A stretch of DNA of 64,000 nt from Lachnospiraceae bacterium NK4A144. GTDB lineage: Bacteria > Bacillota > Clostridia > Lachnospirales > Lachnospiraceae. The stretch covers positions 1 to 64,000 of the forward strand of contig AUJT01000023.1 in assembly GCA_000424365.1 (NCBI GenBank), written 5' to 3'. The notes under the pieces are model-generated. The model saw only the letters and a program-made list of their open reading frames with translations, did no database searches and was not told where the DNA came from. Within the stretch, counting starts at the first letter, position 1, and every line of letters begins with the position of its first letter. A program made the position numbers and the translations under genes. This document shows positions 4,641-61,511 of the stretch, in pieces.

Positions 4641-4642
4641 CA

Positions 4643-32400: not shown

Positions 32401-34312
32401 GTGTCTTATCCATCTCATATGCAGCAGAATCACTTCCGGCTGTCATGCCGCTGATAGTATGACCTTTTCCGTCAAATGTACCGTTAAACGCATAGTCACT
32501 GCCGCCAACCGGTTTCCAGTCAGAACCTGAAATATCTATGTCCTTTGCAAGTACGATTACATTTCCTGTGTAATCATGTGTATCATCAAGAGAGGATGCA
32601 AAAGCTCTGAGCTGTGCCGCTGTTTCGATCACATAGGGATCTTCCTCTGATCCATTTCCTGATGCAAAAATATCAGATAAATCCTGTGCATTTTCAGCTT
32701 TGCCATTTCCAATAACTGCCTTGTTTCCTGACATTTCCCATGAATACATAGTCACATTTGTTACATCATATGCACTCATCAAAGCCTTTACATTTGCTTT
32801 ATTGCTGTTTAAGAGATCTGCAAAACTGTCCTCAGACATTTCTGCTTTCTTCATTGCATCTGCTTTAAATGCTTTGTCGTAGGTCGTACCTGTGCCGGCT
32901 GCAATCATATCAGTGATGCCATCTGTATCAGCAGATGTAGATACATTAAGCTTTGCATCTGAAGCGTAATAAGCGAAATCTCTAAGAGCGCCCTCGGCAG
33001 GATACTCCGCTGAATTTGTCATTCCAGAGGTGGTTATCTGTCCTGCGATCGCTCCTGTATATCCGGCCTTTCCTGTAGAGTTCACGACTCTGATATCGCT
33101 TGTGGAATATACATTCCAGAGTTTTCCGGCAAACATTCCTGCGATACCGCCTGTAAGACCTGTGCTTGCAGGAGTAATATTTTCAATGGCTCCTGTGCTT
33201 CCGCAGTTTACGATCACGTTATTTAATGAACTCATGCCGACGATGCCTGCCACATATGAGTTTACCCATTCTCCGGGATCTTCATTTTTCTGCTCAATAT
33301 CTGTATAGCAGTTTGTGATAACCGCACCCTTCATCGCACGTCCGAGAATACCGCCATTCATCGTCATCTTTACGGAATCGGCCGCAATACTGATCTTTCC
33401 TGATGCGCTGACATGATCAACAACGCTCGAACCGGCTACCGTGTCACCGGCAACCGATCCCACAAATGTCTTTTGTTCCGCCTTTACATCAATGTCGACA
33501 TTTTCAAAAGAAATATTCTTTACTTCCGCTGATCCGTTAAGCGTAGAGAAAAGTCCCAGACTCTTTGCAGAAGACACAGTATCATGGATCTTTAAGTTAC
33601 TGATCTTATGATCTTTTCCATCAAAATGTCCGTTAAAAATAGTATCTTCAGACTTTGTTGTCTGGGCTTCTGTTCCGATAGGATTCCAGTTATCTGTACC
33701 GGAAAGATCGATATCTGAACCAAGTTCGATAAATTCACCGGTATATGGATTTCCTTCATCAACGGCAGACGCAAATGCCGCCAACTGCTCTGCATTTGCA
33801 ATGATATACGGTGATTCTTCTGTACCGTTGCCGGATGCAAATGTAGTCACTACTGCGTCTTTCAATGCGTCATTTACGGCAGCTTTAATGCCCTTTGAAC
33901 TATAAGTCGCATGAGATATATCATCTACATCCGTAGACTGTTTCTCAATGATAGACTTTACAATTTCCCATGCTCTTGCCCACTTTTTAGGAGTTTCCCC
34001 CTGCGATACTTCATCGATAGATGCGATCTTTCCGTCCTTGATAGTTACCTTTACAGTAATATCACTCTTAAACCCTTTTCCTGTTCCGGTATATTCTCCA
34101 TCCTTATATACCGCTGTTTCATCAATCGATGCATCTTCATCATTTTCCTGCGTAAGGCTATCAAGTGAAAACGAACCGTCCTCGCTGAACTCTGCAGCCT
34201 GATCATCCAGGATTTCTTCCGCCATGACCGGAACAGCAGGAGCGATCGAAGGGGCGATCATTGAAACACTGATAGATAAAACCATCAATATTTTTCTCAT
34301 TCTTCTCTCCAT
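29447..34312 (-). CDS. Large secreted surface protein: FMN-binding-like domain plus GLUG-type beta-helix repeats
   Basis: 1621 residues. Signal peptide about 1-27 (RKILMVLSISVSMIAPSIA, cleavage near PVMA/EE). Residues ~60-160 resemble the FMN_bind domain (KDGEYTGTGKGF ... ATYSSKGIKAAV), but the usual SGAT is SHAT. Three long blocks then start with GNGTEESPY-like motifs (about 160, 550 and 1022), each rich in GLUG-like repeats (GGIAGM, GIAGMQYKGS, VGGLAGSM) typical of right-handed beta-helices. A second weak FMN_bind-like segment lies near 950-1000 and an Ig-like/Lys-rich region at the end. No LPXTG. Start 34312 has GAGGAG 9 nt upstream; 34300 is possible. Adhesion or redox role uncertain. Confidence 0.8.
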   Translation of the reverse strand: MERRMRKILMVLSISVSMIAPSIAPAVPVMAEEILDDQAAEFSEDGSFSLDSLTQENDEDASIDETAVYKDGEYTGTGKGFKSDITVKVTIKDGKIASIDEVSQGETPKKWARAWEIVKSIIEKQSTDVDDISHATYSSKGIKAAVNDALKDAVVTTFASGNGTEESPYIIANAEQLAAFASAVDEGNPYTGEFIELGSDIDLSGTDNWNPIGTEAQTTKSEDTIFNGHFDGKDHKISNLKIHDTVSSAKSLGLFSTLNGSAEVKNISFENVDIDVKAEQKTFVGSVAGDTVAGSSVVDHVSASGKISIAADSVKMTMNGGILGRAMKGAVITNCYTDIEQKNEDPGEWVNSYVAGIVGMSSLNNVIVNCGSTGAIENITPASTGLTGGIAGMFAGKLWNVYSTSDIRVVNSTGKAGYTGAIAGQITTSGMTNSAEYPAEGALRDFAYYASDAKLNVSTSADTDGITDMIAAGTGTTYDKAFKADAMKKAEMSEDSFADLLNSNKANVKALMSAYDVTNVTMYSWEMSGNKAVIGNGKAENAQDLSDIFASGNGSEEDPYVIETAAQLRAFASSLDDTHDYTGNVIVLAKDIDISGSDWKPVGGSDYAFNGTFDGKGHTISGMTAGSDSAAYEMDKTPYYGLFGVLESKAVVKNVTLSNVNINAVSKKSVMVAGIAGYMQGVSANNTFAGAVIDNVSVQGKINLTTDAGNNYVAGIAGMQYKGSIINSTVDMDVSGVVKDSSLAEVGGLVALCNRGLVANSSAYGTVYGSGSRVLREGADEADEGMAIVSPLVACNAGSLVNCYASADIETKEYSKYAGMVSGWVTGIGKAYRCWYDADKKMTVNGSEVDPVSAVGTVISKGVSDETFESYAGGLTFELTPVSGNDIAKAYEGLNKSFGSLPIEITNFGIKNDSFKTWSWHNDTSKNLADGENAAVIYVKPEVENRTEEVVLEMMDGSWYGRSKDKSTVVKIKTENNKVTDIEVISGDKSGEKYDEALETARSRAVYGDFTDYAEADTSVFDGGNGTEESPYLVSTEKQLRYIAEAINADVTWNNVWFRQTGDIKVSEEEFLPIGFALQQYNTSTGAIKTAAVHAFEGNYDGAGYVISGLRIGNGKKYGHIFTNGMFGLVQGDYPDRFLHDELRKSVIKNVHLKDVKVTTANEYDTTAATLIGQGQNGTFIENCSAEDSEINASCDERSARVGGLAGSMVYGLIRDSKADVKVNAEVKKNFSAYVGGFVGITNRATIINCYTLGDVTAKARDYNKTTVGGFIGLDASAVVNCYAKGNVTSESTTGDIGAFAGRTAGIASNAYDYYDAKTVLTVAGKVKDTVYAGADPYSVIAKNKTVGNADTTDKAFAEKMNVTLKNMTYVLNDVRAEYSDENDQTKYDKMYIYYTGDGSDLYKWTLINDVTEFDKTSGSDAPTPVNPETPATNVPAYTEVSFPASDGSTITLSRNNTTGAYTDAEGDIAVVISANEISAPDKKGNAKADTSARYSYAGKKLKPGVKSYVVVDGTAYVYGKDYKVSVKGGLHAGKLTAVYKFKKNTAVYKSGIKKITQNASVEAKTVTAEDVTVKLNKKQTKVVSIADKETKKKINKKNYTVDMSAKTVTFKGDYAGIVKF

Positions 34313-34400
34313 GAGCATTCTCTCCTCTATTAACGCCAATATTACATGATTGATCGTTGCCTGGTGTCTATATAAACATCCTTTGTTTATGGTCAACTAA

Positions 34401-34484
34401 TTAGTGAAACCTAACCATGGCAACTTGTTCAGATTATCATACAATTATTAGCGTTAACAATTACTTACTTGAGAATCATTTTCA
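34401..34484 (-). promoter_or_regulatory. Regulatory region of the surface protein: TTAG box and Fur-like box
   Basis: TTGTTA (34455-34460) and GATAAT (34433-34438) on the minus strand, 16 bp apart, form a plausible promoter. A TTAG box, TTAGT-GAAA-CCTAA, is at 34401-34414. A Fur-like 7-1-7 palindrome TGAGAAT-C-ATTTTCA is at 34470-34484, upstream of the -35. Iron and redox control are suggested. Confidence 0.55.
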
Positions 34485-49454: not shown

Positions 49455-50072
49455 TTACACTGCATACGAGTGTGAATACATATCATCTCCGATCCTGTTA
49501 TCGGCTATGACTTTCATGATACTCACACCTGAGAGAAGTTCTCTCATCATTTTTTCCGTAATAGCATCATAGCACTGAAACAGCGCCGCTGCCGTGTCCG
49601 GATCGGTATAAACTTTCCAGTACCCGTTAAGCAGATAATTTTTGCCATCCTGCTCTATATATCCGATCACGTCTCCTATCGGATATCCCAGAAAGAGTCC
49701 CAGTTCATCCGGAAATCCCGCTGTTCCCTCCATGCATGCCGTATAACGTGATGATACTTCCTGTATCGCATCATGCAGTGATCCGGACGAAAATCCGCGT
49801 TCTCTGAAAAACAACATATTTTTGCTGTCTCTCAGTATCCGCTCCAGTCTGTCCTTGTGATATATAAGATATGTCACTTTTTTGTCGTTCTGATACAGAA
49901 CCGCCCAAGACAGGCCTATCGCCCGTATGATTCTCAGTGCCGCCGATATCATTTCACGGTCCAGGATAAGGAGATTACTCACCTTTAATCCTGATAACAC
50001 CGGTGCGCACTGATAAATCAACGTATGCTCAAGTTCACGAAAATCTATGATGTCATATACATCCCTACTCAT
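49455..50072 (-). CDS. DUF3793 family protein
   Basis: 205 residues, cytoplasmic. Typical pieces are LEHTLIYQCAPVLSGLKVSNLL, SWAVLYQNDKKVTYLIYHK and ELGLFLGYPIGDVIGYIEQDGKNYLLNGYWKVY. The family is of unknown function and in Clostridia regularly accompanies flavodoxin or ferrous-iron genes. Here it overlaps the flavodoxin gene by four bases, so expression is coupled. A redox or flavin-related role is inferred from context only. Confidence 0.82.
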   Translation of the reverse strand: MSRDVYDIIDFRELEHTLIYQCAPVLSGLKVSNLLILDREMISAALRIIRAIGLSWAVLYQNDKKVTYLIYHKDRLERILRDSKNMLFFRERGFSSGSLHDAIQEVSSRYTACMEGTAGFPDELGLFLGYPIGDVIGYIEQDGKNYLLNGYWKVYTDPDTAAALFQCYDAITEKMMRELLSGVSIMKVIADNRIGDDMYSHSYAV

Positions 50073-50500
50073 GCTTTAACAAGTGCCTGGCCCAGGGCTT
50101 CACAATCACTCAGGGCATCATCATCAGGTGCATTATTTGCAATAACGCCTTCACCGTTTACAACAGTTGCTCCATCAGACGAAACTCTGTCGCACCATGA
50201 TGTCATCCACTCGCCTGATCCCCATCCATAGGATCCGAACAATGCAACCTTCTTCCCTCCGATAAGACCGTCAAGCTCAGTCATAAAAGGCTCAACTTCT
50301 CCCTCTTCCAGAACCTCTGCCCCCATTGCAGGACAACCAAGAGCAAATCTGTCATCCTTTGCAAGATCAGCTGCAGAAAGCTCGCTGAATCCCAAGAGGC
50401 TTGCCTTTCCACCGGCTGCCTGAATTCCCTTCGCAACAGCCTCTGCCATAGCCTGTGTGTTACCTGTTCCGCTCCAATATACAACCTTTATCTCTGCCAT
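50069..50500 (-). CDS. Flavodoxin
   Basis: 143 residues: FMN phosphate loop VVYWSGTGNTQAMA, aromatic loop FALGCPAMGAE, and ALFGSYGWGSGEWM near the second flavin loop. Low-potential one-electron carrier in the cytoplasm; a candidate electron donor for the two glycyl-radical activases of this window. Preceded by AAAGGAA and by a promoter with two TTAG boxes, so probably part of the same regulon as the small RNAs. Confidence 0.93.
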   Translation of the reverse strand: MAEIKVVYWSGTGNTQAMAEAVAKGIQAAGGKASLLGFSELSAADLAKDDRFALGCPAMGAEVLEEGEVEPFMTELDGLIGGKKVALFGSYGWGSGEWMTSWCDRVSSDGATVVNGEGVIANNAPDDDALSDCEALGQALVKA

Positions 50501-50526
50501 TTTTTGTTGTTCCTTTCAGTCATTTA

Positions 50527-50578
50527 TTAGTTTCAACTAACTATGTTAGATATTAGCACTTGCTAACTATAATCACAA
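50527..50578 (-). promoter_or_regulatory. Flavodoxin promoter with two TTAG boxes
   Basis: TTGTGA (50573-50578) and TAATAT (50550-50555) on the minus strand, 17 bp apart. Box 1 TTAGT-TTCA-ACTAA at 50527-50540 lies near the start site; box 2 TTAGC-ACTT-GCTAA at 50553-50566 overlaps the -10 and spacer. Centres are 26 bp apart. The same two-box geometry occurs in both small RNA promoters. Confidence 0.75.
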
Positions 50579-50683
50579 GTGTTTTGATGATAATTGTTTA
50601 TCAATAGCAGAAGACCATATTCCTGTCAAAAAAGAAAATTGTCACCGCCGATGAAATCATCATAAACAGCTTAACACAATTAA

Positions 50684-50768
50684 AAAAAAAACAGCCACGG
50701 CTGGCTCGACCGTGGCTGCATTCTGAATAGGAGAAATCTAAATTTTACTTTCGTTAGTTTTTGCTAAC
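50684..50768 (-). ncRNA. Putative small RNA 1 with anti-Shine-Dalgarno segment
   Basis: Between promoter 50775-50803 and a strong terminator (stem 50692-50700 with 50710-50718, then ten T) there is about 85 nt with no open frame. The unpaired middle reads AGATTTCTCCTATTCAG, shared at 12 of 14 positions with small RNA 2. ATTTCTCCTAT (complement of 50727-50737) is exactly complementary to the pflA ribosome binding site and start (58611-58621), and partly to the NCS2 permease ribosome site. Inference from sequence only. Confidence 0.65.
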
Positions 50769-50803
50769 AAGGTTATATTAGCATTGACTAACGCATGTGT
50801 CAA
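50753..50803 (-). promoter_or_regulatory. Promoter of small RNA 1 with two TTAG boxes
   Basis: TTGACA (50798-50803) and TAATAT (50775-50780), 17 bp apart on the minus strand. Box 1 TTAGT-TTTT-GCTAA at 50754-50767 overlaps the start site; box 2 TTAGC-ATTG-ACTAA at 50778-50791 overlaps the -10. Centres 24 bp apart. Confidence 0.75.
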
Positions 50804-50835
50804 CAGTATTTTTTCATCATTTTATTAAAACAACA

Positions 50836-50881
50836 AATGCCCTGACAAAAAGAAGCTAAAAACTTTCTTCTGTCAGGGCAT
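50836..50881 (-). terminator. Terminator of the fructokinase gene
   Basis: Long imperfect stem ATGCCCTGACA/TGTCAGGGCAT with inner pairs AAG/CTT. Lies 27 bp after the stop codon. Separates the gene from small RNA 1. Confidence 0.8.
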
Positions 50882-50907
50882 CTGATCATTTTTTTCGAAA
50901 TTTCGAC

Positions 50908-51858
50908 TTATTTATGATTTTTTCTGAACGCTTCAATAGTTTCTCTTGTCGGAAGTGAGGAAATAGCGCCTTTTTCCTGTACGCAAAGGAATCCGCTGAT
51001 ATTTCCGTAATCCAGTGCATCTCTTGCGATCTCTTCTGTCACATCATTCTTACTTCTGACACCGAGGATCAGGAGTCTTGAAAGGAATCCACCCCAGAAC
51101 GCATCTCCGGCACCTGTTGTATCCTTTACATACTGAGGCTCGGAATAACCTCTGTCTACAAAGTTGATACCGTTAAAGAAGCACTTTGAGCCATCACCGC
51201 CAAGAGTCATTACAACTACAGTAATGTCGTTCTCCTTCATTACATTCGGGATATTTTCTTCTCCGCCGAGCATATCCACCTCTTCATCAGACACCTTTAA
51301 AAGGTCAACGAGAGGAAGTAATTTCTTTACCTCGTCTGCGCACTTTTCTTTGTCATCATTCCATGCCACATTTCTGTAATTGATATCAAAGCTTACAAGC
51401 TTGCCATCTTCATGAGCAAGTCTCATTGCCTCACGTGTAGCATCAGCAGAATCAGGTGCAGAAAGTGAGAATGATCCGGCATGAACCATCTGTGCCTTAG
51501 CGATCACGTCAGCAGAAACCTCTGACTTATTTAAGAACATATCAGCGCCGGGCTTTCTTCCGAAAGTAAAGCTTCTGTCGCCATGCTCATCAAGTGTTAC
51601 GAATGCAAGAGTTGTCATTGCATTTTTGGCTCTCTCAGGATTAAGGACTTCTACGCCCTCTTTTTTCAAAGTATCCTGCAGAAATACTCCAAAGTCATCA
51701 TCTCCAACCTTTGTATATACACCGGATGTAATACCATTTCTCACCGCTGCGATAGCAACATTTGCAGGCGCTCCTCCTGCATTTCTGATATAAACTCCTG
51801 TGCTTTCTCCGGGAAGAAAATCAATGACCATTTCGCCGATACAAACTAAGTCTGCCAT
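50908..51858 (-). CDS. scrK: Fructokinase (PfkB family)
   Basis: 316 residues. N-terminal MADLVCIGEMVIDFLPG, GGAPANVAIAAVRNG, a middle SFDINYRNVAW and the signature KDTTGAGDAFWGGFLSRLL with catalytic Asp match bacterial fructokinases. It would make fructose 6-phosphate from fructose and ATP. Ribosome site AAGGGG before ATG. Transcribed alone from a promoter flanked by palindromes; sucrose or fructan genes are not adjacent. Confidence 0.85.
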   Translation of the reverse strand: MADLVCIGEMVIDFLPGESTGVYIRNAGGAPANVAIAAVRNGITSGVYTKVGDDDFGVFLQDTLKKEGVEVLNPERAKNAMTTLAFVTLDEHGDRSFTFGRKPGADMFLNKSEVSADVIAKAQMVHAGSFSLSAPDSADATREAMRLAHEDGKLVSFDINYRNVAWNDDKEKCADEVKKLLPLVDLLKVSDEEVDMLGGEENIPNVMKENDITVVVMTLGGDGSKCFFNGINFVDRGYSEPQYVKDTTGAGDAFWGGFLSRLLILGVRSKNDVTEEIARDALDYGNISGFLCVQEKGAISSLPTRETIEAFRKNHK

Positions 51859-51900
51859 TTTGAACCCCTTATATCTTTCGATATTCCTTTCGTATAATTA

Positions 51901-51981
51901 TTGATAACCACTACATTGTTTATCAACTTTACTATAAGATGTATTTTGTTTCTTTGTCAATTGAAATAGAAAATACATCTT
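51901..51981 (-). promoter_or_regulatory. Fructokinase promoter with two palindromic sites
   Basis: TTGACA (51955-51960) and TATAGT (51931-51936), 18 bp apart on the minus strand. Perfect 12-bp inverted arms AAGATGTATTTT (51936-51947) and AAAATACATCTT (51970-51981) flank the -35 element. A second palindrome TTGATAA...TTATCAA spans 51901-51926, downstream of the start site. Likely operators of a sugar repressor or repressors not in the window. Confidence 0.65.
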
Positions 51982-51990
51982 TAAAAGAAT

Positions 51991-52035
51991 AAAAAAACAG
52001 GCTTCCATACATTTTTATGTACAAGAAGCCCGTCT
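51991..52035 (-). terminator. Terminator of the P-type ATPase gene
   Basis: Stem GGCTTC...GAAGCC with inner ATACAT/ATGTAC pairing (52000-52012 with 52018-52030); on the minus strand followed by TGTTTTTTT. Confidence 0.82.
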
Positions 52036-52042
52036 TACATTT

Positions 52043-54130
52043 TTAATCTCTGCTTATTAGATCTGTCATACTATGAAGCGATACACCAAGTGTTGAAGCA
52101 TTGTGAAGGACCGCTGATGTTGCCGGAGGAAGTATTCCCATAACCCCAAGCATTATAAGTCCAAAGTTAAATCCTATAACAAATCTGTAATTGGATTCTA
52201 TCCTCTTCATCAGGAAATCACTTATATTTTTCAGTGTCACAAGTTCAAAAAGCGTATCCGCAGAAACTGTGATATCTGCAACTTCTCTGGCAATCTGTGC
52301 TCCCTCACTTATGGCTATTCCTGCATCCGAGGTGCTGAGCGCAGGTGAATCATTTATACCGTCACCTACCATAATGACCTTGCGTCCTGCTGCATGTTCT
52401 TTTTCAATGAATGCAGCCTTATCCTCCGGCAGTACCTCTGCATAATATTCATCAACGCCAACCTTTGATGCTATAGCCGCTGCTGTACGTTCGCTATCAC
52501 CGGTCATCATGACGATCTTATCTATTCCCATCATGTGTAAAGTATTGATGACAGCGCCCGCTTCTTCCCTTATAGGATCGCTTATGTAAATAACTGCGGC
52601 AAGTCTGCCTCCGATCGCCAGATAAAGGTGTGAATACTGTGTTTCCAGCTCGTCAAACTTTTCCTTTTCGCCTTCCGGGATTTCTGCCTTTTCATCCTCA
52701 AATACAAAATGATAGCTTCCGATCACAACATCATTTCCGTCAACAGAGCTTGCAATACCGTGAGCCACTATATACTTTACTTCCGAGTGCATTTCCTCAT
52801 GAGTAAGCCCCAGCTCATTCGCCTTATTGACTACAGCATTGGCTATAGAATGAGGGAAATGCTCCTCAAGACACGCTGCCAGGCGAAGCATCTCATCCTT
52901 GTCTTCTCCGCCAAATGTCACCACGTCAGCCACTACCGGATCAGCCTTTGTAAGAGTACCTGTCTTATCAAAAACTATCGTATTTGCACCTGATACAGCT
53001 TCCAGATATTTTCCACCCTTAACCGTGATCTTGTAGCCACTCGCTTCTCTCATGGCAGAAAGCACCGAGATTGGCATAGCAAGTTTCAGAGCGCACGAAA
53101 AGTCTACCATCAGAACAGAAATCGCACGTTCAACGTTTCTTGTGATCAGATATGTAAGGATCGTTCCTGCAAAACTGTACGGTACCAGATGATCTGCCAG
53201 TGAAGACGCTCTTGTTTCGAGATTACTTTTTAGTTTCTCGGATTCTTCGATCATGTGGACGATCTTTTCATATCTGGTTCCACCCGATTCAGCAGTGACG
53301 CTTATCTCAAGTTCGCCCTCTTCAACTACTGTTCCTGCAAAAACAGTGACACCTTCATTCTTTCTGACCGGCACGGCTTCTCCGGTCATGGAAGCCTGAT
53401 TTACCATTGCTTCTCCGGATGTTACAACTCCGTCAAGCGGTATCATATTTCCGGTACGGATCACAATGATATCACCTTCATTTACATCCGTTACTCTAAC
53501 TCTGATTTCTTCATTGTCTCCGGTCTTTTTCCACACGTGTGCTACATTTAATGACATGCTGCGCGCAAGATCATCAACCGATTTCTTATGCGTCCAGTCT
53601 TCGAGCAATGATCCTATGTTCAAAAGGAACATGATCGAACTTGCAGTATCTATATCATCTCTAAGCGTTGATACAAGTACTGCCGTCGCGTCAAGGACTT
53701 CCACCTTCAGATGACCACCTTTTAGGCTCTTTATTCCCTTTAAGACGCATCTGACCACTTTAGCTCCGGTATAAAGGATCCTTATCGGTGCCGGAAGGAC
53801 TGTCTTTTCAATGACTCTCCTGCAAAGCATCCAGAAAAGCTTATCTTCATATTCACGATTAAGCATCCTTCCTGTTTTTTCAGGAACAAGTTCCTCATTC
53901 TTTTCATCCTTAAAATCAAATGCCAGAAGAGAATCTATCACTGCCTGTCTGTCATGCTTATATCTTATCAGGACCGAACTCGTTCTCTCATGTACAGATA
54001 CACTGATGATCTCAGGATTTTGTATCAAGGCATACTGAAGCATATCCGCCTCATGCAGAGTCATCTTTCCATAAACATGAGCACGTATCCTGATACGTCC
54101 TTCCAGTTCATGTAATACTGTAAAATTCAT
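52043..54130 (-). CDS. P1B-type (heavy-metal) ATPase with atypical SCALK membrane motif
   Basis: 695 residues. A degenerate HMA-like N-terminus (LHELEGRIRIRAHVYGKMTL, no CxxC), actuator loop MTGEAVPV, phosphorylation site VFDKTGTLTKAD, and hinge MVGDGINDSPAL are clear. The transmembrane metal motif, CPC or similar in copper and zinc pumps, reads DFSCALKLAMP here, so metal selectivity is uncertain; manganese or iron-type export is possible. Co-directional with the DUF6110 gene 141 bp upstream. The gap holds small hairpins (AATCCGA/TCGGATT and AAAACACG/CGTGTTTT). Confidence 0.88.
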   Translation of the reverse strand: MNFTVLHELEGRIRIRAHVYGKMTLHEADMLQYALIQNPEIISVSVHERTSSVLIRYKHDRQAVIDSLLAFDFKDEKNEELVPEKTGRMLNREYEDKLFWMLCRRVIEKTVLPAPIRILYTGAKVVRCVLKGIKSLKGGHLKVEVLDATAVLVSTLRDDIDTASSIMFLLNIGSLLEDWTHKKSVDDLARSMSLNVAHVWKKTGDNEEIRVRVTDVNEGDIIVIRTGNMIPLDGVVTSGEAMVNQASMTGEAVPVRKNEGVTVFAGTVVEEGELEISVTAESGGTRYEKIVHMIEESEKLKSNLETRASSLADHLVPYSFAGTILTYLITRNVERAISVLMVDFSCALKLAMPISVLSAMREASGYKITVKGGKYLEAVSGANTIVFDKTGTLTKADPVVADVVTFGGEDKDEMLRLAACLEEHFPHSIANAVVNKANELGLTHEEMHSEVKYIVAHGIASSVDGNDVVIGSYHFVFEDEKAEIPEGEKEKFDELETQYSHLYLAIGGRLAAVIYISDPIREEAGAVINTLHMMGIDKIVMMTGDSERTAAAIASKVGVDEYYAEVLPEDKAAFIEKEHAAGRKVIMVGDGINDSPALSTSDAGIAISEGAQIAREVADITVSADTLFELVTLKNISDFLMKRIESNYRFVIGFNFGLIMLGVMGILPPATSAVLHNASTLGVSLHSMTDLISRD

Positions 54131-54271
54131 TATTCACCACGTCTTTCTTCTAATAAGAACATAAAATCCGACTTTATCGGATTCTCCGCGCAAGCGCAGA
54201 AAAGTCAAAAACACGCGAACGACCCATTTTCGAGTTATCCACGTGTTTTACAAAACCCTCATTACAGGTTA

Positions 54272-54601
54272 TTAGACTTCAAGACCTACTTCCTCTGCTG
54301 CAGCCTTCTTAGCCTTAAGAAGTTCCTCTGCCTCTCTGTACTCTCTTTCTCTGCGCTCCTGCTCTCTCTTTGCATTGATGCTCTTTGCATCAGCGTAGAT
54401 ATCTGCACAATTCTCTGTGAGGATATCTTTCTGTTCGAGAGTATAGTCCTTCATACGGAGAACTGCTGCTGTACACTCTGTATATGCTTTCTTTGCGTCC
54501 TGACTGCTAAGGATCTTGATACCGGCCGTTCCAAAAAGAACTCCACCTGCAAAAAGGCCAACCTTCTTCCATGCAACTTTTGATAAACACTCTAAAATCA
54601 T
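54272..54601 (-). CDS. DUF6110-like small membrane-anchored protein
   Basis: 109 residues. A Gly-rich hydrophobic segment (about 13-28, VGLFAGGVLFGTAGIKIL) is followed by a long charged coiled coil (KREQERREREYREAEELLKAKKAA). Such proteins are repeatedly found next to the SCALK-type ATPases (family knowledge), and may assist or regulate them. Ribosome site AAAGGAG. No catalytic motif. Confidence 0.75.
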   Translation of the reverse strand: MILECLSKVAWKKVGLFAGGVLFGTAGIKILSSQDAKKAYTECTAAVLRMKDYTLEQKDILTENCADIYADAKSINAKREQERREREYREAEELLKAKKAAAEEVGLEV

Positions 54602-54794
54602 ATCTGTCTCCTTTCAGCCTTTGAACTAAATATTACTGTTCACACTTAAATGTACTATGTATATATCGGTTACTAATTCCCGACACTTGACTGTTATTTC
54701 AATCAATCCATAGACATTTTTTTGATTACTATCCGATTATATTTCTCTGATTTTTTGAGAACAAGAGATTTTATTGAGAAGTTTTTTCACTAAG

Positions 54795-54935
54795 TGCGCA
54801 AAAAGAAGCCTTGTTGGATTTTTATTAATCGTAAAAATCCAACACGACTAAGAAAAGCTGTTTTTTATTGGAGTATCGATCACGAATGATATTCGTTATC
54901 ACTTGGATATTAGCACAGGTTAACCGTTTCTACAA
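54795..54935 (-). promoter_or_regulatory. TTAG-boxed promoter and possible leader or small RNA
   Basis: The 54602-55023 gap has a minus-strand promoter TTGTAG (54930-54935), 17 bp, TAATAT (54907-54912), with a TTAG box TTAGC-ACAG-GTTAA at 54910-54923 in the same -10-overlapping place as in small RNA 1. The transcript would start with a hairpin at 54878-54900 (GATAACGAAT/ATTCGTGATC) and reach a 12-bp stem (54813-54824 with 54832-54843). It may be a third small RNA, or a 300-nt leader of the DUF6110-ATPase operon. 54602-54794 otherwise shows nothing. Confidence 0.45.
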
Positions 54936-54962
54936 TGATCCTTATAGTACATTTTTTATCAA

Positions 54963-54995
54963 CAAGAGCAGAGGATTACGGTTCCTCTGCTCTTG
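54963..54995 (-). terminator. Terminator of the YfbR-like HD gene
   Basis: Perfect 12-bp stem CAAGAGCAGAGG/CCTCTGCTCTTG with a 9-nt loop; on the minus strand followed by TTGATAAAAAATG. Lies 28 bp after the HD gene stop. Confidence 0.78.
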
Positions 54996-55023
54996 GCATA
55001 ATTTATATGATATCTATCACAGA

Positions 55024-55635
55024 TCATGACAATTCATCTAATGTATTTCCATACGGCGGCAAAAATTCTGTGAGAAAATCTCTGACTTCCGGCATAGCTT
55101 CTGCCATCCGCTCCAAAGAATCACGGGTGGACTTTTCAGCTGTGCGAAACTCCGAATTTCCCGCCTGTCTTTCTTCCATACATTTGATAAGTGCAGATAT
55201 TTTATCAGCGGCTTTTACGAGTCTTCTCATATATTTTTCCTCCGGATCATCTGAGCCGTCCTGATTCTTGCTCTCCCTAAATATCCGCTCATATTCAGGT
55301 CTCAGATCGTCAGGAAGTTTATTTAAAAGTCTTTCATCTGCCATTGCCTCAATCTGTTTATAGGCAGTTCTTATATCTCTATTGAAATATTTAACAGGTG
55401 TAGGCATATCTCCTGTAATGATCTCTGATGCATCGTGATATAGTCCGACCAGTGCCGCCTTCTCAGTATCCATTTTGTGACCATATCTGACATTTCCTAT
55501 GACAGTCAGGCAATGTGCGATCATCGCCACATCCGTACTATGTTCAGACAAAGTCTCCGCTCTTGCATTTCTCATGAGCGCCCAGCGCTCGATATATTTC
55601 ATTCTGTATATTGCTGCAAAAAAATTATAGGTCAT
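55024..55635 (-). CDS. HD-domain phosphohydrolase, YfbR (5'-nucleotidase) type
   Basis: 203 residues. The metal site is seen in ERWALMRNARAETLSEHSTDVAMIAHCL (His), LVGLYHDASEIITGDMPTPVKYFN (HD) and KAADKISALIKCMEE (Asp). The closest recognised type is YfbR, a deoxyribonucleoside 5'-monophosphatase, which shares the E-H-S and HD-A-x-E arrangement. Stands alone, downstream of the YolD/polymerase pair by 59 bp and perhaps co-transcribed. Confidence 0.88.
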   Translation of the reverse strand: MTYNFFAAIYRMKYIERWALMRNARAETLSEHSTDVAMIAHCLTVIGNVRYGHKMDTEKAALVGLYHDASEIITGDMPTPVKYFNRDIRTAYKQIEAMADERLLNKLPDDLRPEYERIFRESKNQDGSDDPEEKYMRRLVKAADKISALIKCMEERQAGNSEFRTAEKSTRDSLERMAEAMPEVRDFLTEFLPPYGNTLDELS

Positions 55636-55694
55636 GTAATCCTCCGATCAACTCATCCGCTATTATTATATCTGTCCGTTCACGCAACGTTTTT

Positions 55695-56177
55695 TCAAAC
55701 AAGATCGATATCTGATATTTTACTTATCGGCACACTGCTTCCGTCTGTAAAAATGATACCACCATTAGTCATATCTATCCTTCGCACGAAACCACTTTTT
55801 GTCACATATTCCCCTCCGGTCTTTTTATCATCAGGCACAAAAAATGTAACATTTATTTCCGGTTTTTCTTTAATTTTTTCCCATATCAACTGAAGTTTAC
55901 GATCAAGTTCTTCTTTTTTATCATCGGATAAAACCATCTCTTTTTCCGTGATCCGTGCTGTTTCCCTTATCTCATCATCATACCCGGTCAGCGCAGCAAA
56001 AGGAGAGAACTGTGCTGCCCGGACATCCATATTTGCCCTTGGATGTTTCCTCACACCGTCCCACTTTGTATCCAGTATGTCTCCATACTTTCTGATAACT
56101 TCCGGATCACCGCGCAGCTCCTCTTCCGAAACTCCACGAACATTGTGCCAGGAATTTTCGAACCTCTCCTTTGTCAT
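55695..56177 (-). CDS. YolD-like protein
   Basis: 160 residues. RAAQFSPFAALTGYDDEIRETARI is the hallmark of proteins encoded next to Y-family polymerases, and the C-terminal half (GGEYVTKSGFVRRIDMTNGGIIFTDGSSVPISKISDI) forms the small YolD beta domain. Function unknown; assumed to cooperate with the polymerase encoded immediately upstream (one base between the stop and this ATG). Confidence 0.85.
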   Translation of the reverse strand: MTKERFENSWHNVRGVSEEELRGDPEVIRKYGDILDTKWDGVRKHPRANMDVRAAQFSPFAALTGYDDEIRETARITEKEMVLSDDKKEELDRKLQLIWEKIKEKPEINVTFFVPDDKKTGGEYVTKSGFVRRIDMTNGGIIFTDGSSVPISKISDIDLV

Positions 56178-56178
56178 A

Positions 56179-57684
56179 TCAGGCTCTATGTCCTCCGATC
56201 TGTTTATTTCGCTCTATCGTATTTGCGCCATCCTGCAGGTCTGTGCCCTTCAAAACCGCATTTTTTCCAAATTTCTTTCTGAGTTCTAATGTTGCGCGCT
56301 GCATCCTCTTTTCTCTCTCAAGCTCTTTTTCTTCTTTCTCACGCCTGACTTCCAGCGCTCCATAATCCGTAAAAAGGTCAAGCTGCTCATACTTCGGTTC
56401 ATTTTTTATATCTTTCTCATATCTCGTATGATTAGCTGTGACATATACTCTTCGCGTCAATAAATTCGGTTCGATAATACTGTCAAAAAGCTCCACAGAA
56501 GCATCTACGATCTTTTTTACAGAACAGGTCCATCTATCAAGATTTATGCTCCCATGAGCGCTTTTAGGCACCTTTCTGCCATAATGATCTGTCTTTATCA
56601 CGCCTTTATAGTTTTGCATCGCCGATGGATTTTTCAGATTTTCAATATCATATCCAACCGTGATAACTATCTGGTCTGTTACAAGTCCTTTCGACATGAG
56701 ATCCATTGCAAGTGTCTCAGCCATTTCACGAATGATGATCCTTGTTTTTTCGACTGTATATGGCTGTGTCAAAACCTGCCCCGCACCTGTGCTGGTGGAC
56801 TGAGGCTTGTACGCCTTTATATCTGCTATAGTAGTATTTTCTATACCAAAGGCATGATCTATTAGATACTCTGCGTTTACACCAAACATCTTGAAAAGCA
56901 TTTCTTCGTTTTCAAGAGCGCTCCGCGCTATATCTCCCATTGTAAAGATACCCTTTGATTCGAGTTTTTTTGCGTATCCCGTGCCAACTCTCCAAAAATC
57001 CGTGAGCGGTCTGTGATTCCAGAGGATCCGCCTGTAGTTCATTTCATCCAGTTCCGCTATACGTACACCATCTTTATCCGCCGGGATATGTTTTGCCACG
57101 ATGTCCATTGCCGCTTTGCATAAATAAAGATTTGGAGCGATACCGGCAGTCGCAGTTATACCGGTTTCTTCCATAACTTCATGTATCATTTTTACTGCAA
57201 GTTCTCTCGCAGTCAGACCATAAATCTTCAAGTACCCCGTAACGTCCATAAAAACTTCATCTATGGAATATACGTGAATATCCTCCGGCGCAATATATCT
57301 TAAATAGACAGAATATATCTTTGCACTGATCTCCTCGTACTTCTGCATCTGTGGGCGCGCCGCAATAAAGTCCAATTCTAACGAAGGATTTGATCTTAAT
57401 TCATCAATATCATCGGACTTTCCTCGAAATGCTTTCCCATTAAGCACTCTGAGACGTGATTTATTTATTTCCTTTACAGCCTGTTTTACTTCAAAAAGAC
57501 GTGGGCGTCCCGGGATGCCATAAGCCTTTAACGCCGGAGACACCGCAAGACATATGGTTTTATCTGTACGTGAAGCATCTGCAACCACAAGATTTGTCGT
57601 AAATGGATCTTTCCCTCTCTCTCGACACTCCACTGAGGCATAGAAAGACTTTAGATCGACAGCTATATAAATATGTTCTTTCAT
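56179..57684 (-). CDS. Y-family DNA polymerase (UmuC/UvrX-like)
   Basis: 501 residues from ATG 57684 (GAGGAG 6 nt upstream). Catalytic motifs YIAVDLKSFYASVECRERG and VYSIDEVFMDVTGYL (acidic pair), then helix-hairpin-helix AKKLESKGIFTMGDIARSA and a little-finger region. C-terminal part is Lys/Glu-rich. Translesion polymerase. An SOS-like box overlaps the region just upstream of the ribosome site, and the YolD partner follows. Confidence 0.92.
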   Translation of the reverse strand: MKEHIYIAVDLKSFYASVECRERGKDPFTTNLVVADASRTDKTICLAVSPALKAYGIPGRPRLFEVKQAVKEINKSRLRVLNGKAFRGKSDDIDELRSNPSLELDFIAARPQMQKYEEISAKIYSVYLRYIAPEDIHVYSIDEVFMDVTGYLKIYGLTARELAVKMIHEVMEETGITATAGIAPNLYLCKAAMDIVAKHIPADKDGVRIAELDEMNYRRILWNHRPLTDFWRVGTGYAKKLESKGIFTMGDIARSALENEEMLFKMFGVNAEYLIDHAFGIENTTIADIKAYKPQSTSTGAGQVLTQPYTVEKTRIIIREMAETLAMDLMSKGLVTDQIVITVGYDIENLKNPSAMQNYKGVIKTDHYGRKVPKSAHGSINLDRWTCSVKKIVDASVELFDSIIEPNLLTRRVYVTANHTRYEKDIKNEPKYEQLDLFTDYGALEVRREKEEKELEREKRMQRATLELRKKFGKNAVLKGTDLQDGANTIERNKQIGGHRA

Positions 57685-57711
57685 GCCGCGCTCCTCATTG
57701 CCTCCTTTTGC

Positions 57712-57758
57712 GAACACACATTCTAATACATTATACAAAATATCTCAAATCCAATCAA
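57712..57758 (-). promoter_or_regulatory. Polymerase promoter and LexA-like box
   Basis: TTGATT (57753-57758) and TATAAT (57730-57735) on the minus strand, 17 bp apart. GAAC-ACAC-ATTC at 57712-57723 matches the Gram-positive SOS box GAAC-N4-GTTC with one mismatch, between start site and ribosome site. SOS induction is likely. Confidence 0.65.
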
Positions 57759-57780
57759 GTGTTCGTATAGACAATAAGTA

Positions 57781-57835
57781 AAAAGCCCTCCAATCCGGAT
57801 AATTTAAGAATAAATCCGGTTCGGAGGGCTTTTTA
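57781..57835. terminator. Terminator of pflA (bidirectional)
   Basis: Stem AAAAGCCCTCC/GGAGGGCTTTT with inner ATCCGG/CCGGAT; runs of A and T on both sides. Lies 9 bp after pflA; also faces the polymerase promoter region. Confidence 0.9.
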
Positions 57836-57844
57836 TCAATAATT

Positions 57845-58612
57845 TTACTTTGCAAGATATCCCTTATATTCTGAAGTATTGAGTATCTTATCTGCCTTCT
57901 CCACATCTGACTTATCAGCTGCGTCGAGGTCTTTAAGCGGAAAGTCGATTCCAAGCTTTTCGTACTTCGGTATCATCATATTGTGATACGGAAGTATTTC
58001 AAATCTCTGAACAGTCTTAAGTGTCTTCACGAAATCAGAAAGTCCCTGCAGATCTTCCTCAAAGTCATTCACTCCGGGCACAAGTACATGGCGGATCCAC
58101 ATATTCTTTCCATGGTCTGAGAGGTACTTTGCCATCTCAAGGATATTGGAATTATCCCATGCAGTGAGTTCCTTATGTCTCTCAGGATTGATCTCTTTTA
58201 TATCTAATAAGAAGAGATCTGTCACCTCAAGAAGCGCTTCAAACTTCTTCATAAACTCAGGATCTGCAGAATTAAAAGGATTTGCGGATGTATCCAGAGC
58301 TGTATTTACTCCATTTTCATGAGCAATCTTGAAAAGCTCTGTAACAAATTCGATCTGGAGTAAAGGTTCACCACCACTGACGGTTATACCGCCGCCATTA
58401 TTCCAATAGTTCTTGTATCTTGACGCCTTCTTAAATGCATCTTCCGGTGTGTAGAGCTCACCGCCGTCATCAATCTTCCATGTCTCGGGATTGTGACAAT
58501 ACTTGCATCTCATTCTGCATCCCTGCATAAAGAATATGAATCTTACACCGGGACCGTCCACTGAGCCAAAGGACTCTATAGAATTTACTCGTCCGAGAAT
58601 TTCTTCAGCCAT
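57845..58612 (-). CDS. pflA: Pyruvate formate-lyase activating enzyme
   Basis: 255 residues. SFGSVDGPGVRFIFFMQGCRMRCKYCHNPETW contains the radical SAM C-x3-C-x2-C motif in the form specific to PFL activase; GGGITVSGGEPLLQ follows. Uses SAM to install the glycyl radical on PflB. The ribosome site and start (58611-58625) contain two overlapping AGGAGA repeats, and 11 nt of them are perfectly complementary to small RNA 1. Encoded 128 bp after pflB, across a hairpin at 58637-58672. Confidence 0.95.
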   Translation of the reverse strand: MAEEILGRVNSIESFGSVDGPGVRFIFFMQGCRMRCKYCHNPETWKIDDGGELYTPEDAFKKASRYKNYWNNGGGITVSGGEPLLQIEFVTELFKIAHENGVNTALDTSANPFNSADPEFMKKFEALLEVTDLFLLDIKEINPERHKELTAWDNSNILEMAKYLSDHGKNMWIRHVLVPGVNDFEEDLQGLSDFVKTLKTVQRFEILPYHNMMIPKYEKLGIDFPLKDLDAADKSDVEKADKILNTSEYKGYLAK

Positions 58613-58636
58613 TTCTCCTATCTCCTATCTTTTTGC

Positions 58637-58672
58637 AAAAGAGCCCTGCGGCAAAAATGTCACAGGGCTCTC
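58637..58672 (-). terminator. Hairpin between pflB and pflA (partial terminator)
   Basis: GAGAGCCCTG/CAGGGCTCTT stem on the minus strand with a T-run TTTT, located directly before the pflA ribosome site. It could set the lower expression of pflA relative to pflB by partial termination or act in mRNA processing. Confidence 0.6.
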
Positions 58673-58740
58673 TCATCAGCTGATTTTTATATTAAGTTAC
58701 CGACAGACCTGAGTCCATACGGTTTAGAGTCGCTTAGAAA

Positions 58741-60999
58741 TCAAAGCTTCTCGTGGAATGTTCTGGAGATAACATCCATCTGCTGCTCACGAGTAAGATC
58801 GATGAACTTAACAGCGTATCCTGATACACGGATAGTGAAGTTAGCGTACTCAGGCTTCTCAGGATGCTCCATAGCGTCCTTGAGCTTCTCCTTACCGAAT
58901 ACGTTTACGTTCAGGTGATGTGAACCCTGGCTGAAGTAACCGTCAAGTACGTTAACGAGATTGTTCTTTCTCTCCTCATCATCGTGACCAAGAGCTGACG
59001 GGTTCATTGTCTGAGTATTGGAAATACCATCAAGAGCCCACTCATACGGCATCTTAGCTACAGAGTTAAGGGAAGCAAGAAGACCATTCTGCTCTGCGCC
59101 GTAGCTCGGGTTAGCACCCGGTGCGAACGGAGTCCAAGCTCTTCTTCCATCCGGAAGGTTACCTGTAAACTTACCATATACAACGTTAGAAGTAATAGTA
59201 AGGATAGAAGTTGTAGGCTCAGAATTTCTGTAAGTATGTCTCTTCTTGATCTTTGTCAGGAAGCTGTGAAGAACCTCAACACCGATGTTATCAGCGCGGT
59301 CATCATCGTTACCATACTTCGGGAAATCGCCCTCTACTTCGTAGTCAACTACGAGACCTGTCTCAGGATCACGTACAGTCTTAACCTTTGCATACTTGAT
59401 AGCAGAAAGGGAATCGATTACGTGTGAGAAGCCTGCGATACCTGTAGCGAATGTACGACGTACATCAGTATCGATAAGAGCCATCTCAGCTGCCTCATAG
59501 TAGTATTTATCATGCATGTACTGGATAAGGTTAAGTACATTTACGTACAGACCAGCAAGCCAGTCAAGCATACGATCATATGCAGCGTAAACTTCATCAA
59601 AGTCAAGGTACTCGGAAGTGATCGGTCTGTAAGCAGGTCCTACCTGAACGCCGCTCTTCTCATCGATACCGCCGTTGATAGCGTAGTTAAGAGCCTTAGC
59701 AAGGTTTGCACGAGCTCCGAAGAACTGCATCTCCTTACCTGTCTGTGTAGCAGATACGCAGCAGCAGATGGAGTAATCATCGCCCCAGATCGGCTTCATA
59801 ACATCATCGTTCTCATACTGGATAGAAGATGTTGTTACAGAGATCTTTGCAGCGTACTTCTTGAAGTTCTCAGGAAGTGCAGGAGAGTAAAGAACTGTAA
59901 GGTTCGGCTCCGGTGAAGGACCCATGTTCTCCAGTGTGTGGAGGAATCTGTAGTCGTTCTTTGTAACCATGCTGCGGCCATCCATGCCGATACCACCAAC
60001 TTCAAGAGTTGCCCAAACCGGATCTCCGGAGAACAGCTCGTTGTAAGAAGTGATACGAGCAAACTTAACCATACGGAACTTCATTGTCATATGGTCGATG
60101 AGCTCCTGAGCCTGAGCCTCTGTAAGAGTACCGTTCTTCAGGTCTCTCTGCATGTAGATATCAAGGAATGTGGAGATACGTCCAACGGACATAGCAGCAC
60201 CGTTCTGTGTCTTAACAGCTGCAAGATATCCGAAGTACAGCCACTGAACAGCTTCTCTTGCGTTCTTAGCAGGAGCAGAGATATCGAAGCCGTAAGCCTG
60301 AGCCATAGCCTTCATACCGTTAAGAGCCTTGATCTGCTCAGCAAGCTCTTCTCTCTGACGGATAACGTCATCTGTCATTGTGCCGTCACCGCAGTTCTGC
60401 TTGTCTTCGTTCTTCCAGGCGATGAGCTGGTCGATACCGTAAAGAGCTACTCTTCTGTAGTCGCCTACGATACGTCCACGGCCGTATGTATCAGGAAGAC
60501 CTGTTACGATGTGGCTGCGGCGAGCTGCTCTCATCTCATCTGTATATGCGTCAAATACTGCCTGATTGTGTGTCTTATGATAATCATTGAAGATCTTGTG
60601 GAACTTCGGGTTAGGAGTGTAACCATAGTTCTGGCAGGACTCCTCAGCCATCTTGATACCACCGAAAGGCATGAATGCTCTCTTAAGCGGCTTATCTGTC
60701 TGAAGACCTACTACTTTCTCAAGATCCTTCATGGACTCGTCGATGTAGCCCGGACCATATGCTGTAAGGCTGGAAACTACCTCTGTCTCCATATCAAGAA
60801 CGCCGCCCTTTGCGCGCTCTTCCTTCTGAAGCTCCTGAAGTCTGCCCCAGAGCTTGTTTGTAGCATCTGTAGCGTCTGCGAGGAAGCTCTCGTCTCCGTC
60901 ATACGGCTCATAGTTATTCTGGATGAAGTCGCGTACGTTGCACTCTTCTTTCCAGAGGCGGCCTTCAAAGCCTTTCCATTCTTCATTCTGTAACAACAT
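58741..60999 (-). CDS. pflB: Formate C-acetyltransferase (pyruvate formate-lyase)
   Basis: 752 residues. Active-site cysteines in [14 protein letters not shown] and the glycyl radical Gly727 in [13 protein letters not shown] are diagnostic, together with full-length PFL fold motifs ([21 protein letters not shown]-like [12 protein letters not shown]). Converts pyruvate and CoA to acetyl-CoA and formate. Ribosome site AAGGAGG. Preceded by a Rex-like operator and a TTAG box; followed by its activase. Confidence 0.97.
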
Positions 61000-61037
61000 T
61001 GTGAAACCTCCTTACTGGTCTCTTGTGTAAAATATAG

Positions 61038-61113
61038 TTAGCTTTGGTTAACAATCTTGCTATTCCAAAATCCAAGGATTGATACTAGCAGAAATTTGTT
61101 AAAAAATCAACAA
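61038..61113 (-). promoter_or_regulatory. pflB promoter with Rex-like operator and TTAG box
   Basis: TTGATT (61105-61110), 17 bp, TAGTAT (61082-61087), with an extended TGC on the minus strand. TTGTTAAAAAATCAACAA at 61096-61113 matches the Rex site TTGTTAA-N4-TTAACAA with one mismatch and covers the -35. A TTAG box TTAGC-TTTG-GTTAA is at 61038-61051, downstream of the start site. NADH-responsive repression by Rex plus a second regulator is suggested. Confidence 0.7.
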
Positions 61114-61269
61114 CCTCAGTACAACTTTTTAGAGGCCTGTATAAACCTACTAAAATACCACAAAAAATGCCGTATCATATGGTACATTTTCATATAATTA
61201 TATTTTGTCTAACATGCCTACAAAAGCGCATTTTTCTGCTTTTTTATTGTACACTTTTAAATACACATC

Positions 61270-61390
61270 AAAATATTAAAAACCTGCCGTGATGGCTGGG
61301 CACGGCAGGTCAAGGTAAGAGAAATCTGAAAGTTGTACAAAATCCATGCGCATGAATCTGTACTTTTGCGGTAGTTAGCTTCCACTAACG
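61270..61390 (-). ncRNA. Putative small RNA 2 with anti-Shine-Dalgarno segment
   Basis: About 120 nt with no open frame. Order: a 5' hairpin (AAAGTACA...TGTACAACTTT with CATGCGCATG at its tip, roughly 61331-61368), a single-stranded stretch CAGATTTCTCTTACCTTG that resembles the same stretch of small RNA 1, and a terminator stem ACCTGCCGTG/CACGGCAGGT (61282-61291 with 61301-61310) followed by TTTTTAATATTTT. Parallels with small RNA 1 in promoter, order and motif suggest a family. Inferred. Confidence 0.65.
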
Positions 61391-61425
61391 ATTTATAATT
61401 TAGCATATGCTAACAGTCTTGTCAA
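61375..61425 (-). promoter_or_regulatory. Promoter of small RNA 2 with two TTAG boxes
   Basis: TTGACA (61420-61425), 17 bp, TAAATT (61397-61402) on the minus strand. Box 1 TTAGC-TTCC-ACTAA at 61375-61388 lies near the start site; box 2 TTAGC-ATAT-GCTAA at 61400-61413 overlaps the -10. Centres 25 bp apart, the same layout as small RNA 1 and the flavodoxin promoter. Confidence 0.75.
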
Positions 61426-61464
61426 TATCTTTCTATCATCAAGCGTATTTTCAACATTAAAGGT

Positions 61465-61511
61465 CTCATATAAAAATCCGATCATGACTGCGAAAAGGAT
61501 TTTTATATGAG
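61465..61511 (-). terminator. Perfect 15-bp hairpin after the 61532 gene
   Basis: Arms 61465-61479 and 61497-61511 are perfect complements with a 17-nt loop. It lies just beyond the gene's stop codon and probably terminates it or protects its 3' end; no clear T-run follows. Its outer sequence CTCATATA also opens the arm of R1 copy c. Confidence 0.55.

Follow-up and report, generated by a model that had tools for sequence, protein, structure and literature searches.

The stretch of DNA considered here, called the window below, comprises 64,000 nucleotides (nt) of contig AUJT01000023.1 (assembly GCA_000424365.1) of Lachnospiraceae bacterium NK4A144, the host in what follows, whose contig measures 73 kilobases (kb) and whose genome measures 4.09 megabases (Mb). 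It appears to carry two look-alike genes for small RNAs (sRNAs) on the minus strand, which we suggest are iron-sparing regulators. An earlier note on this DNA had pointed to the pair, and TTGACA, a spacer of 17 base pairs (bp), a -10 and a terminator can be read directly in both. Their parts are these:

50684-50768, minus strand: small RNA 1, about 85 nt, with the start predicted from the promoter and the end from the terminator (fold z -3.58)
50775-50803, minus strand: promoter of RNA 1, with TTGACA at 50803-50798, a 17-bp spacer and the -10 TAATAT at 50780-50775
50777-50792: operator A of RNA 1, GTTAGTCAATGCTAAT, in the spacer and reaching the -10
50753-50768: operator B of RNA 1, GTTAGCAAAAACTAAC, at the predicted +1, doubling as the 5' hairpin of RNA 1
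50728-50739, minus strand: anti-Shine-Dalgarno stretch of RNA 1, AGAUUUCUCCUA, predicted to be unpaired
50681-50719, minus strand: intrinsic terminator of RNA 1, with the loop CGAGCCA that includes the invariant GCCA
61278-61390, minus strand: small RNA 2, about 113 nt, both ends predicted, with one extra internal hairpin (fold z -3.39)
61397-61425, minus strand: promoter of RNA 2, with TTGACA at 61425-61420, 17 bp and the -10 TAAATT at 61402-61397
61399-61414: operator A of RNA 2, GTTAGCATATGCTAAA
61374-61389: operator B of RNA 2, GTTAGTGGAAGCTAAC, doubling as the 5' hairpin of RNA 2
61316-61327, minus strand: anti-Shine-Dalgarno stretch of RNA 2, AGAUUUCUCUUA, predicted to be unpaired
61278-61310, minus strand: intrinsic terminator of RNA 2, with GCCA in the loop at 61296-61293

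The operators of both RNAs are dyads of the form GTTAG-N6-CTAA(C), the first of which fills the spacer up to the -10. The distance between the two dyads is 24 bp for RNA 1 and 25 bp for RNA 2, as the earlier note had stated for what it called two TTAG boxes, but the boxes turn out to be half-sites of these larger dyads. As the second dyad begins at the predicted +1, each RNA would open with the operator as its 5' hairpin. The promoter layout of RNA 1 recurs in relatives according to sequence comparison. Against shuffled sequences the folds of RNA 1 and RNA 2 have z values of -3.6 and -3.4, and each contains a terminator hairpin together with an unpaired AGAUUUCUC(C/U)UA, so that the shared single-stranded anti-Shine-Dalgarno core claimed for the pair was found in both folds. 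The claim that neither RNA holds an open reading frame (ORF) agrees with the lack of any ORF of at least 60 amino acids (aa) overlapping them; shorter frames of 20-49 aa do overlap, and no ORF of at least 10 aa recurs across 13 aligned members of the RNA family, two of which have none of that length. A small-protein role was dropped because of this lack of recurrence; a frame of 25-27 aa is common only to RNA 2 and its copy in a congener and has no Shine-Dalgarno sequence. An intrinsic terminator, a CU-rich seed predicted to be unpaired and no conserved ORF are what would be expected of an iron-sparing sRNA. Searches with Rfam gave RF01699 as the only match over the window, away from the two RNAs, and only sub-threshold matches over 50600-61500, where the gathering score was not reached on either RNA. 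No family matched at 14 loci that are either relatives or other ORF-less sites with the same two-box promoter.

The operator is also found at neighbouring genes. Allowing one mismatch, GTTAG-N6-CTAAC is found at 10 places in the window where 1.2 are expected, a number reached by 0 of 100 shuffles, and 9 of the 17 distinct exact-dyad sites lie on the 73-kb contig holding both RNAs. A looser form, TTAGCN4GCTAA with 2 mismatches, is not enriched in the window (26 versus 27). The neighbours that matter most for the argument are the following:

50526-50567: two operator dyads before the flavodoxin gene
50069-50500, minus strand: flavodoxin, the next same-strand gene after RNA 1, with dyads of its own
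61037-61052: operator dyad GTTAACCAAAGCTAAC before pflB, identical in the congener G380
58741-60999, minus strand: pflB, pyruvate formate-lyase
57845-58612, minus strand: pflA, radical-SAM activase

What the operator responds to can be judged from the genes that share it. The two-box pattern TTGAC-N7-TTAG-N6-CTAA-N7..14-TTAG-N6-CTAA was scanned over a collection of 84,980 genomes and gave at least 118 stretches with at least 120 sites; all counts on two-box sites refer to the matches listed. Loci labelled Bacillota, mostly Clostridia, made up 105 of the 118, and some of the rest, which carry labels of six other phyla or none, may be chance matches. Of the 120 sites, 91 are followed within 200 nt by an ORF that has a stretch resembling a ribosome site. 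When 104 ORFs behind the sites (up to two per site) were scanned, 58 matched FeoA, followed by DUF3793 (7), DUF2325 (3), ZIP, flavodoxin and Fur (2 each) and by FeoB, enolase and a DtxR N-terminal domain (1 each). This FeoA-dominated set indicates that the two-box promoter class marks an iron regulon. Two-box sites also stand before or near Fe_dep_repress genes (L058, L103, L049 and L206). In the host, which has two DtxR-family genes, the perfect dyad GTTAGAATATGCTAAC precedes an operon in which one of them (C5:351-725) follows 6 nt past a 70-aa Cys-rich FeoB-associated gene (PF12669, above cut-off). A dyad shared with the regulator's own gene is what DtxR/IdeR-type autoregulation would produce. 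The two-box operator at feoA, feoB, flavodoxin, Fur and DtxR-type genes elsewhere, together with the dyad at the host dtxR operon, suggests that the cell's iron repressor has its operators in the RNA promoters. This repressor is most likely DtxR and not Fur, given the dyads at dtxR genes and the likeness of the half-site to the IdeR box; Fur genes, too, lie behind two of the two-box promoters. As a separate observation, one gene that looks by eye like Fur (L131) has a two-box promoter in front of it, a hairpin resembling a terminator 13 nt past the box and a further box in the leader, an arrangement that suggests attenuation.

The content of this regulon points to iron as the metal. If the repressor instead depended on manganese, in the manner of MntR, the RNAs would be manganese-sparing or oxidative-stress RNAs, and it is true that the host repressor comes closest, below cut-off, to the MntR models of NCBIfam and that ZIP transporters account for 2 of the 104 ORFs. 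FeoA accounts for 58 of them, however, accompanied by flavodoxin, Fur and FeoB, the host repressor shares its operon with a FeoB-associated gene and the predicted targets described below are iron-sulfur (Fe-S) enzymes, so we consider manganese an unlikely answer.

Two-box sites without an ORF passing the filter number 29 of 120, a few of these being truncated or unusual genes. CTCCT is present within 80 nt at 14 of the 29 (shuffle mean 2.4, maximum 7) versus 6 of the 91 sites with an ORF. A covariance model (R1) was built from 9 aligned sequences picked by eye, both window RNAs included. Over 43 chosen sources it returned the nine training members at E<=4.4e-8, with the next best at 0.13; RNA 1 scored 75.5 bits and RNA 2 71.7 bits, both as training members. 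Over 397 genomes of the family, R1 was positive in 5, namely the host (2 copies), G380 (2 copies), G257, G068 and G207, which means a congener with both paralogues and single copies in three other genera. A second model (R2) of 13 sequences was positive in 7 of 391 genomes of the class, all from the same family: the host, G257 and 5 of the genus of G207, one with two copies. Both searches used strict filters, so that the positive counts are lower bounds. Conservation in relatives was one of the tests set by the earlier note, and the segment and terminator are indeed conserved where the RNA is found, although few genomes have it.

Both RNAs have kept their neighbours in G380, where RNA 2 precedes pflB and RNA 1 is found near flavodoxin; dyads stand at each of the two genes, two of them before flavodoxin as in the host. 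Elsewhere the RNA keeps company with iron genes: the RNA of G257 is transcribed away from a dtxR gene, with flavodoxin close by, Butyrivibrio sp. CB08 has it in the interval from feoAB to dtxR, and at L116 feoB and then dtxR come first, with the RNA about 2.7 kb further on. In the 13-sequence alignment, 6 of the 7 pairs of the terminator stem have changed on both sides, which would fit any terminator, and pairing in the operator hairpin is confounded by the DNA dyad. Two elements are invariant in 13 of 13: UCUC-U-A of the unpaired stretch, which was used in picking the initial nine sequences, and the GCCA in the loop of the terminator, which was not. The anti-Shine-Dalgarno stretch is predicted to be 77-98% unpaired across members and the freest GCCA of each member 95-100%; in three members the latter is a second GCCA in the loop of an upstream hairpin. 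Seven further two-box RNAs (L075, L078, L084, L101, L122, L124 and L127) have CTCC-type stretches, no convincing nearby ORF and no significant R1 match, and are possibly unrelated iron-sparing RNAs.

Each window RNA lies upstream of a same-strand gene (flavodoxin and pflB), and the two could be cis-acting leaders, that is, promoter plus attenuator for these genes. Yet flavodoxin and pflB have dyads of their own, a YdjM gene separates RNA 1 from flavodoxin in G380, and the unpaired cores in G380 are identical to those of the host while the aligned flanks are 73-93% identical. The gene that follows the RNA also varies, being a BAAT_C-type hydrolase in G257, an isopropylmalate-synthase-type gene at L037 and FeoA at L049. 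Because the downstream genes differ among relatives, a role as leaders was set aside and seems very improbable to us.

The target to which the evidence points most clearly is pyruvate:ferredoxin oxidoreductase (PFOR). GGTAGGAG precedes only one of 717 sampled host genes, and this gene is PFOR. For a comparison across genomes, PFOR was matched in 8 of 12 RNA-bearing genomes and 7 sites were read, a distant match in G403 being left out; of 60 family genomes 56 matched, and from the best 30 loci (one of them the host) 27 of the 29 others were read, the unreadable L276 and L283 not entering the counts. Among RNA-bearing genomes 6 of 7 had the ribosome site GTAGGAG, compared with 3 of the 27 others, which are RNA-negative by the strict search only (p 0.0004), and GGTAGGAG was found in 4 of 7 versus 0 of 27 (p 0.0008), the seven coming from few lineages so that these p-values overstate independence.

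Other genes with the same site were read as well. All 32 host GGTARGAG sites were read (PFOR and 31 fetched). GGTAGGAG precedes PFOR, a sulfite-reductase-like gene with Fer4 domains, which retains the site in G380, an aldo/keto reductase gene whose product has CxxCxxC twice, and a gene for a flagellar rod protein. By Cys motif, 3 of these 4 are Fe-S genes compared with 16 of 703 sampled (15 of 702 without PFOR, p 5e-5). The variant GGTAAGAG precedes an RlmD/RumA-type methyltransferase gene, also in G380, and a GNAT acetyltransferase gene, L370-L372 having been excluded by judgement as spurious or internal. Butyrivibrio proteoclasticus, where 13 non-PFOR sites were fetched, has 5 iron-linked genes among 8 behind GGTAGGAG: PFOR, indolepyruvate oxidoreductase alpha, an aconitase-family hydratase, an Mrp-type Fe-S carrier and a Fer4 aldo/keto reductase; the other three are by eye a glycerol kinase, a uridine-kinase-like protein and a TetR-like regulator. 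G207 has 2 of 5, PFOR and a flavoenzyme whose closest match, below cut-off, is the Fe-S enzyme BaiCD. Over the three genomes 10 of 17 genes are linked to Fe-S clusters, cluster binding being taken partly from family knowledge. These counts exclude G380 and omit ORFs without an in-frame upstream stop (L352 in the host; L332 and L341 in B. proteoclasticus; L323 in G207; L354, L357 and L360 in G380), and L330 and L328 were retained since NCBIfam models align from about their first residues. The seed is complementary to ribosome sites of mRNAs for Fe-S enzymes, though weakly so for Fe-S genes taken as a whole. In addition, 3 of the 4 host GGTAGGAG genes start with AUGGC, found in 48 of 600 sampled starts (p 0.002, calculated after looking). 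Recognition in the Lachnospiraceae RNAs may have a second part, in which GCCA of the terminator loop, or of the second, upstream loop in three members, pairs with UGGC of AUGGC starts or is bound by a protein; start-codon pairing by the GCCA loop is a lead only, as the two pairings would run in an unusual parallel order.

A different target, pflA, had been put forward in the earlier note, with the two RNAs as a stress- or redox-regulated pair. RNA 1 does match the pflA start perfectly over 11 nt, the ribosome site there reading GATAGGAGATAGGAGAAATGGC, and the 10-nt AUAGGAGAAA at pflA stays complementary in G380. When duplex energies were ranked over 717 genes, predicted on the window and another 800 kb of host sequence, pflA came only 16th for RNA 1 and 22nd for RNA 2, so the match is real but not outstanding; pflB itself bears a dyad, and PFOR and other Fe-S genes fit better. 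Repression of mainly pflA under redox or stress control is hence highly doubtful. As to the signal, iron acting through a DtxR-family repressor is more likely than stress or redox, considering the FeoA-rich regulon and the dyad at the dtxR operon. The NCS2 permease, also named in the earlier note, gives the second-best RNA 1 duplex after a PfkB-family kinase (3498-4424), both in the window. For RNA 2, PFOR ranks fifth with the site AAGGUAGGAGGAAUUAUCAAAUGGC. Of the genes preceded by TAGGAG, the complement of the RNA 1 core, 3 of 33 are Fe-S genes versus 13 of 670 others (p 0.035), and long complements of RNA 2 occur 16 times genome-wide versus 6 in the reversed control. Extended complements of both RNAs gave 105 matches, of which 46 loci were fetched and 9 had a start codon and ORF in range; L172, a 2Fe-2S-type protein, and L186, an iron-type alcohol dehydrogenase, look iron-linked by eye. 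The idea of a pair of translational repressors probably stands, with relatives in Butyrivibrio and other Lachnospiraceae, whereas the best target is PFOR rather than pflA.

We propose that RNA 1 and RNA 2 are paralogous, trans-acting, DtxR-repressed iron-sparing sRNAs that shift the cell from PFOR and ferredoxin to pyruvate formate-lyase and flavodoxin, and on the sequence evidence we put the probability at about 0.78. When iron is plentiful, a metal-dependent repressor of the DtxR family would sit on the two dyads of each promoter and block transcription. When iron is scarce the repressor would be released, and both RNAs would be made, as would flavodoxin, pflB, the dtxR operon and, in related species, feo. 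The unpaired UCUC(C/U)UA(CC) would then pair at the ribosome-binding site of mRNAs that encode iron-rich enzymes, PFOR above all, where the predicted CUCYUACC/GGUAGGAG pairing would block translation. Pyruvate metabolism would move from PFOR/ferredoxin to pyruvate formate-lyase/flavodoxin and scarce iron would be saved. As pflB bears a dyad of its own, pyruvate formate-lyase should rise when the RNAs rise. Of this picture, sequence analysis shows the layout, the regulon of the operator, the conservation, the covarying stem and the complementarity to Fe-S genes; transcription, the identity and metal of the repressor and the direction and mechanism of regulation are inferred.

Several results weigh against this proposal, besides the MntR-like matches of the host repressor. 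No dyad was found upstream of either host feoB locus in the stretch examined, and over the whole 4.09 Mb genome the exact GTTAGN6CTAA shows no overall excess (22 versus 17 in the reversed control). With the strict filters the RNA was found in few genomes, and R1 had no match in the congener G079. G257 bears the RNA, yet its PFOR is without the GTAGGAG site, and the PFOR comparison as a whole is confounded by relatedness. The set of Fe-S targets was defined after looking and with some ORFs excluded by judgement. Long complements of RNA 1 are not enriched genome-wide (89 versus 80 in the reversed control), and the pairing advantage of Fe-S genes taken together is slight (for RNA 1 p 0.13, for RNA 2 p 0.03, n=16). 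GGTARGAG-N4..13-ATG has no excess over the reversed control in four RNA-bearing genomes (host 32/42, G380 34/43, G207 42/46, G398 47/62), so that start sites at large show no fit to the RNAs.

Some further features of the window are worth recording. A dyad precedes an ABC-exporter operon (LolD/MacB-like by best NCBIfam matches, below cut-off). A perfect dyad at 1714-1729 stands before a 130-aa enolase fragment (1301-1729), in which N- and C-terminal domain pieces are joined across a large internal gap, and enolase is also downstream of a two-box promoter in Treponema sp. JC4 (L068). The DUF3793 gene at 49455-50072 directly follows flavodoxin and, together with the DUF3793 genes behind two-box iron promoters, suggests an iron-related role for DUF3793. 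An FMN-binding/GLUG protein of 1649 aa (29447-34415) has an operator-like dyad at 34400-34415 and adjoins a chemotaxis gene cluster. A DUF6110 protein (54272-54601), with a degenerate box at 54909-54924, adjoins a heavy-metal P-type ATPase (52043-54130), a pair that resembles the fez ferrosome pair of Clostridioides difficile. The RF01699 match is a Clostridiales-1 RNA (124 bits) at 4486-4642 on the minus strand, just upstream of the PfkB-family kinase gene.

Iron-sparing sRNAs are known from other bacteria. RyhB and PrrF share the iron-sparing logic and are duplicated in some species, but they are Hfq-dependent, proteobacterial and controlled by Fur. FsrA is also Fur-controlled and works with the FbpABC chaperones, unlike the window RNAs, and MrsI is actinobacterial and differs from them in sequence and seed. 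Two other sRNAs of Firmicutes gave weak matches, RsaH (RF01821) over RNA 1 (24.5 of 50 bits, E 2) and RsaE/RoxS (RF01820), below gathering, at the pflA site on the plus strand and not on the RNAs. As described in PMC9410917, IsrR of Staphylococcus aureus is iron-repressed through two operators, of which the first is in the promoter and the second shortly after the start site, and its C-rich unpaired regions act on Shine-Dalgarno sites of Fe-S enzyme mRNAs; it differs in having Fur boxes, a longer RNA (174 nt in the form used there) and three C-rich regions, and the likeness is one of described layout and pairing. The same paper presents FsrA of Bacillus subtilis as iron-repressed, with a C-rich motif binding Shine-Dalgarno sites of iron enzymes, and MrsI of Mycobacterium as an sRNA predicted to be under IdeR, a DtxR-family repressor. 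By analogy, the window RNAs most likely work like FsrA and IsrR, while the Rfam searches detected no relation by sequence to a known sRNA family.

Iron-sparing sRNAs have been described in enterobacteria, Pseudomonas, Bacillus, Staphylococcus and mycobacteria; among the papers listed in searches of the open-licence literature, none reports one in Clostridia or Lachnospiraceae. More tentatively, in gut and rumen Clostridia the DtxR two-box promoter might have been joined repeatedly to unrelated CU-rich RNAs, those of the present family in Lachnospiraceae and other ORF-less ones in Oscillospiraceae and others, as a general layer of sRNA-based iron sparing that moves cells from PFOR/ferredoxin to PFL/flavodoxin; in the Lachnospiraceae family recognition may then have two parts, CUCYUACC on GGUARGAG and the GCCA. 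Lachnospiraceae are major fermenters of the gut and rumen. According to a proteomic study of Clostridium pasteurianum, at low iron PFOR is lower and PFL and flavodoxin are higher (PMC5395762), a pattern which by analogy is the outcome predicted for the window RNAs. C. difficile differs, as its pfl branch is reported to be reduced (PMC6311696). If the proposal is true, an RNA lowering PFOR at low iron would tie the iron supply of the host animal to the output of hydrogen, formate and butyrate.

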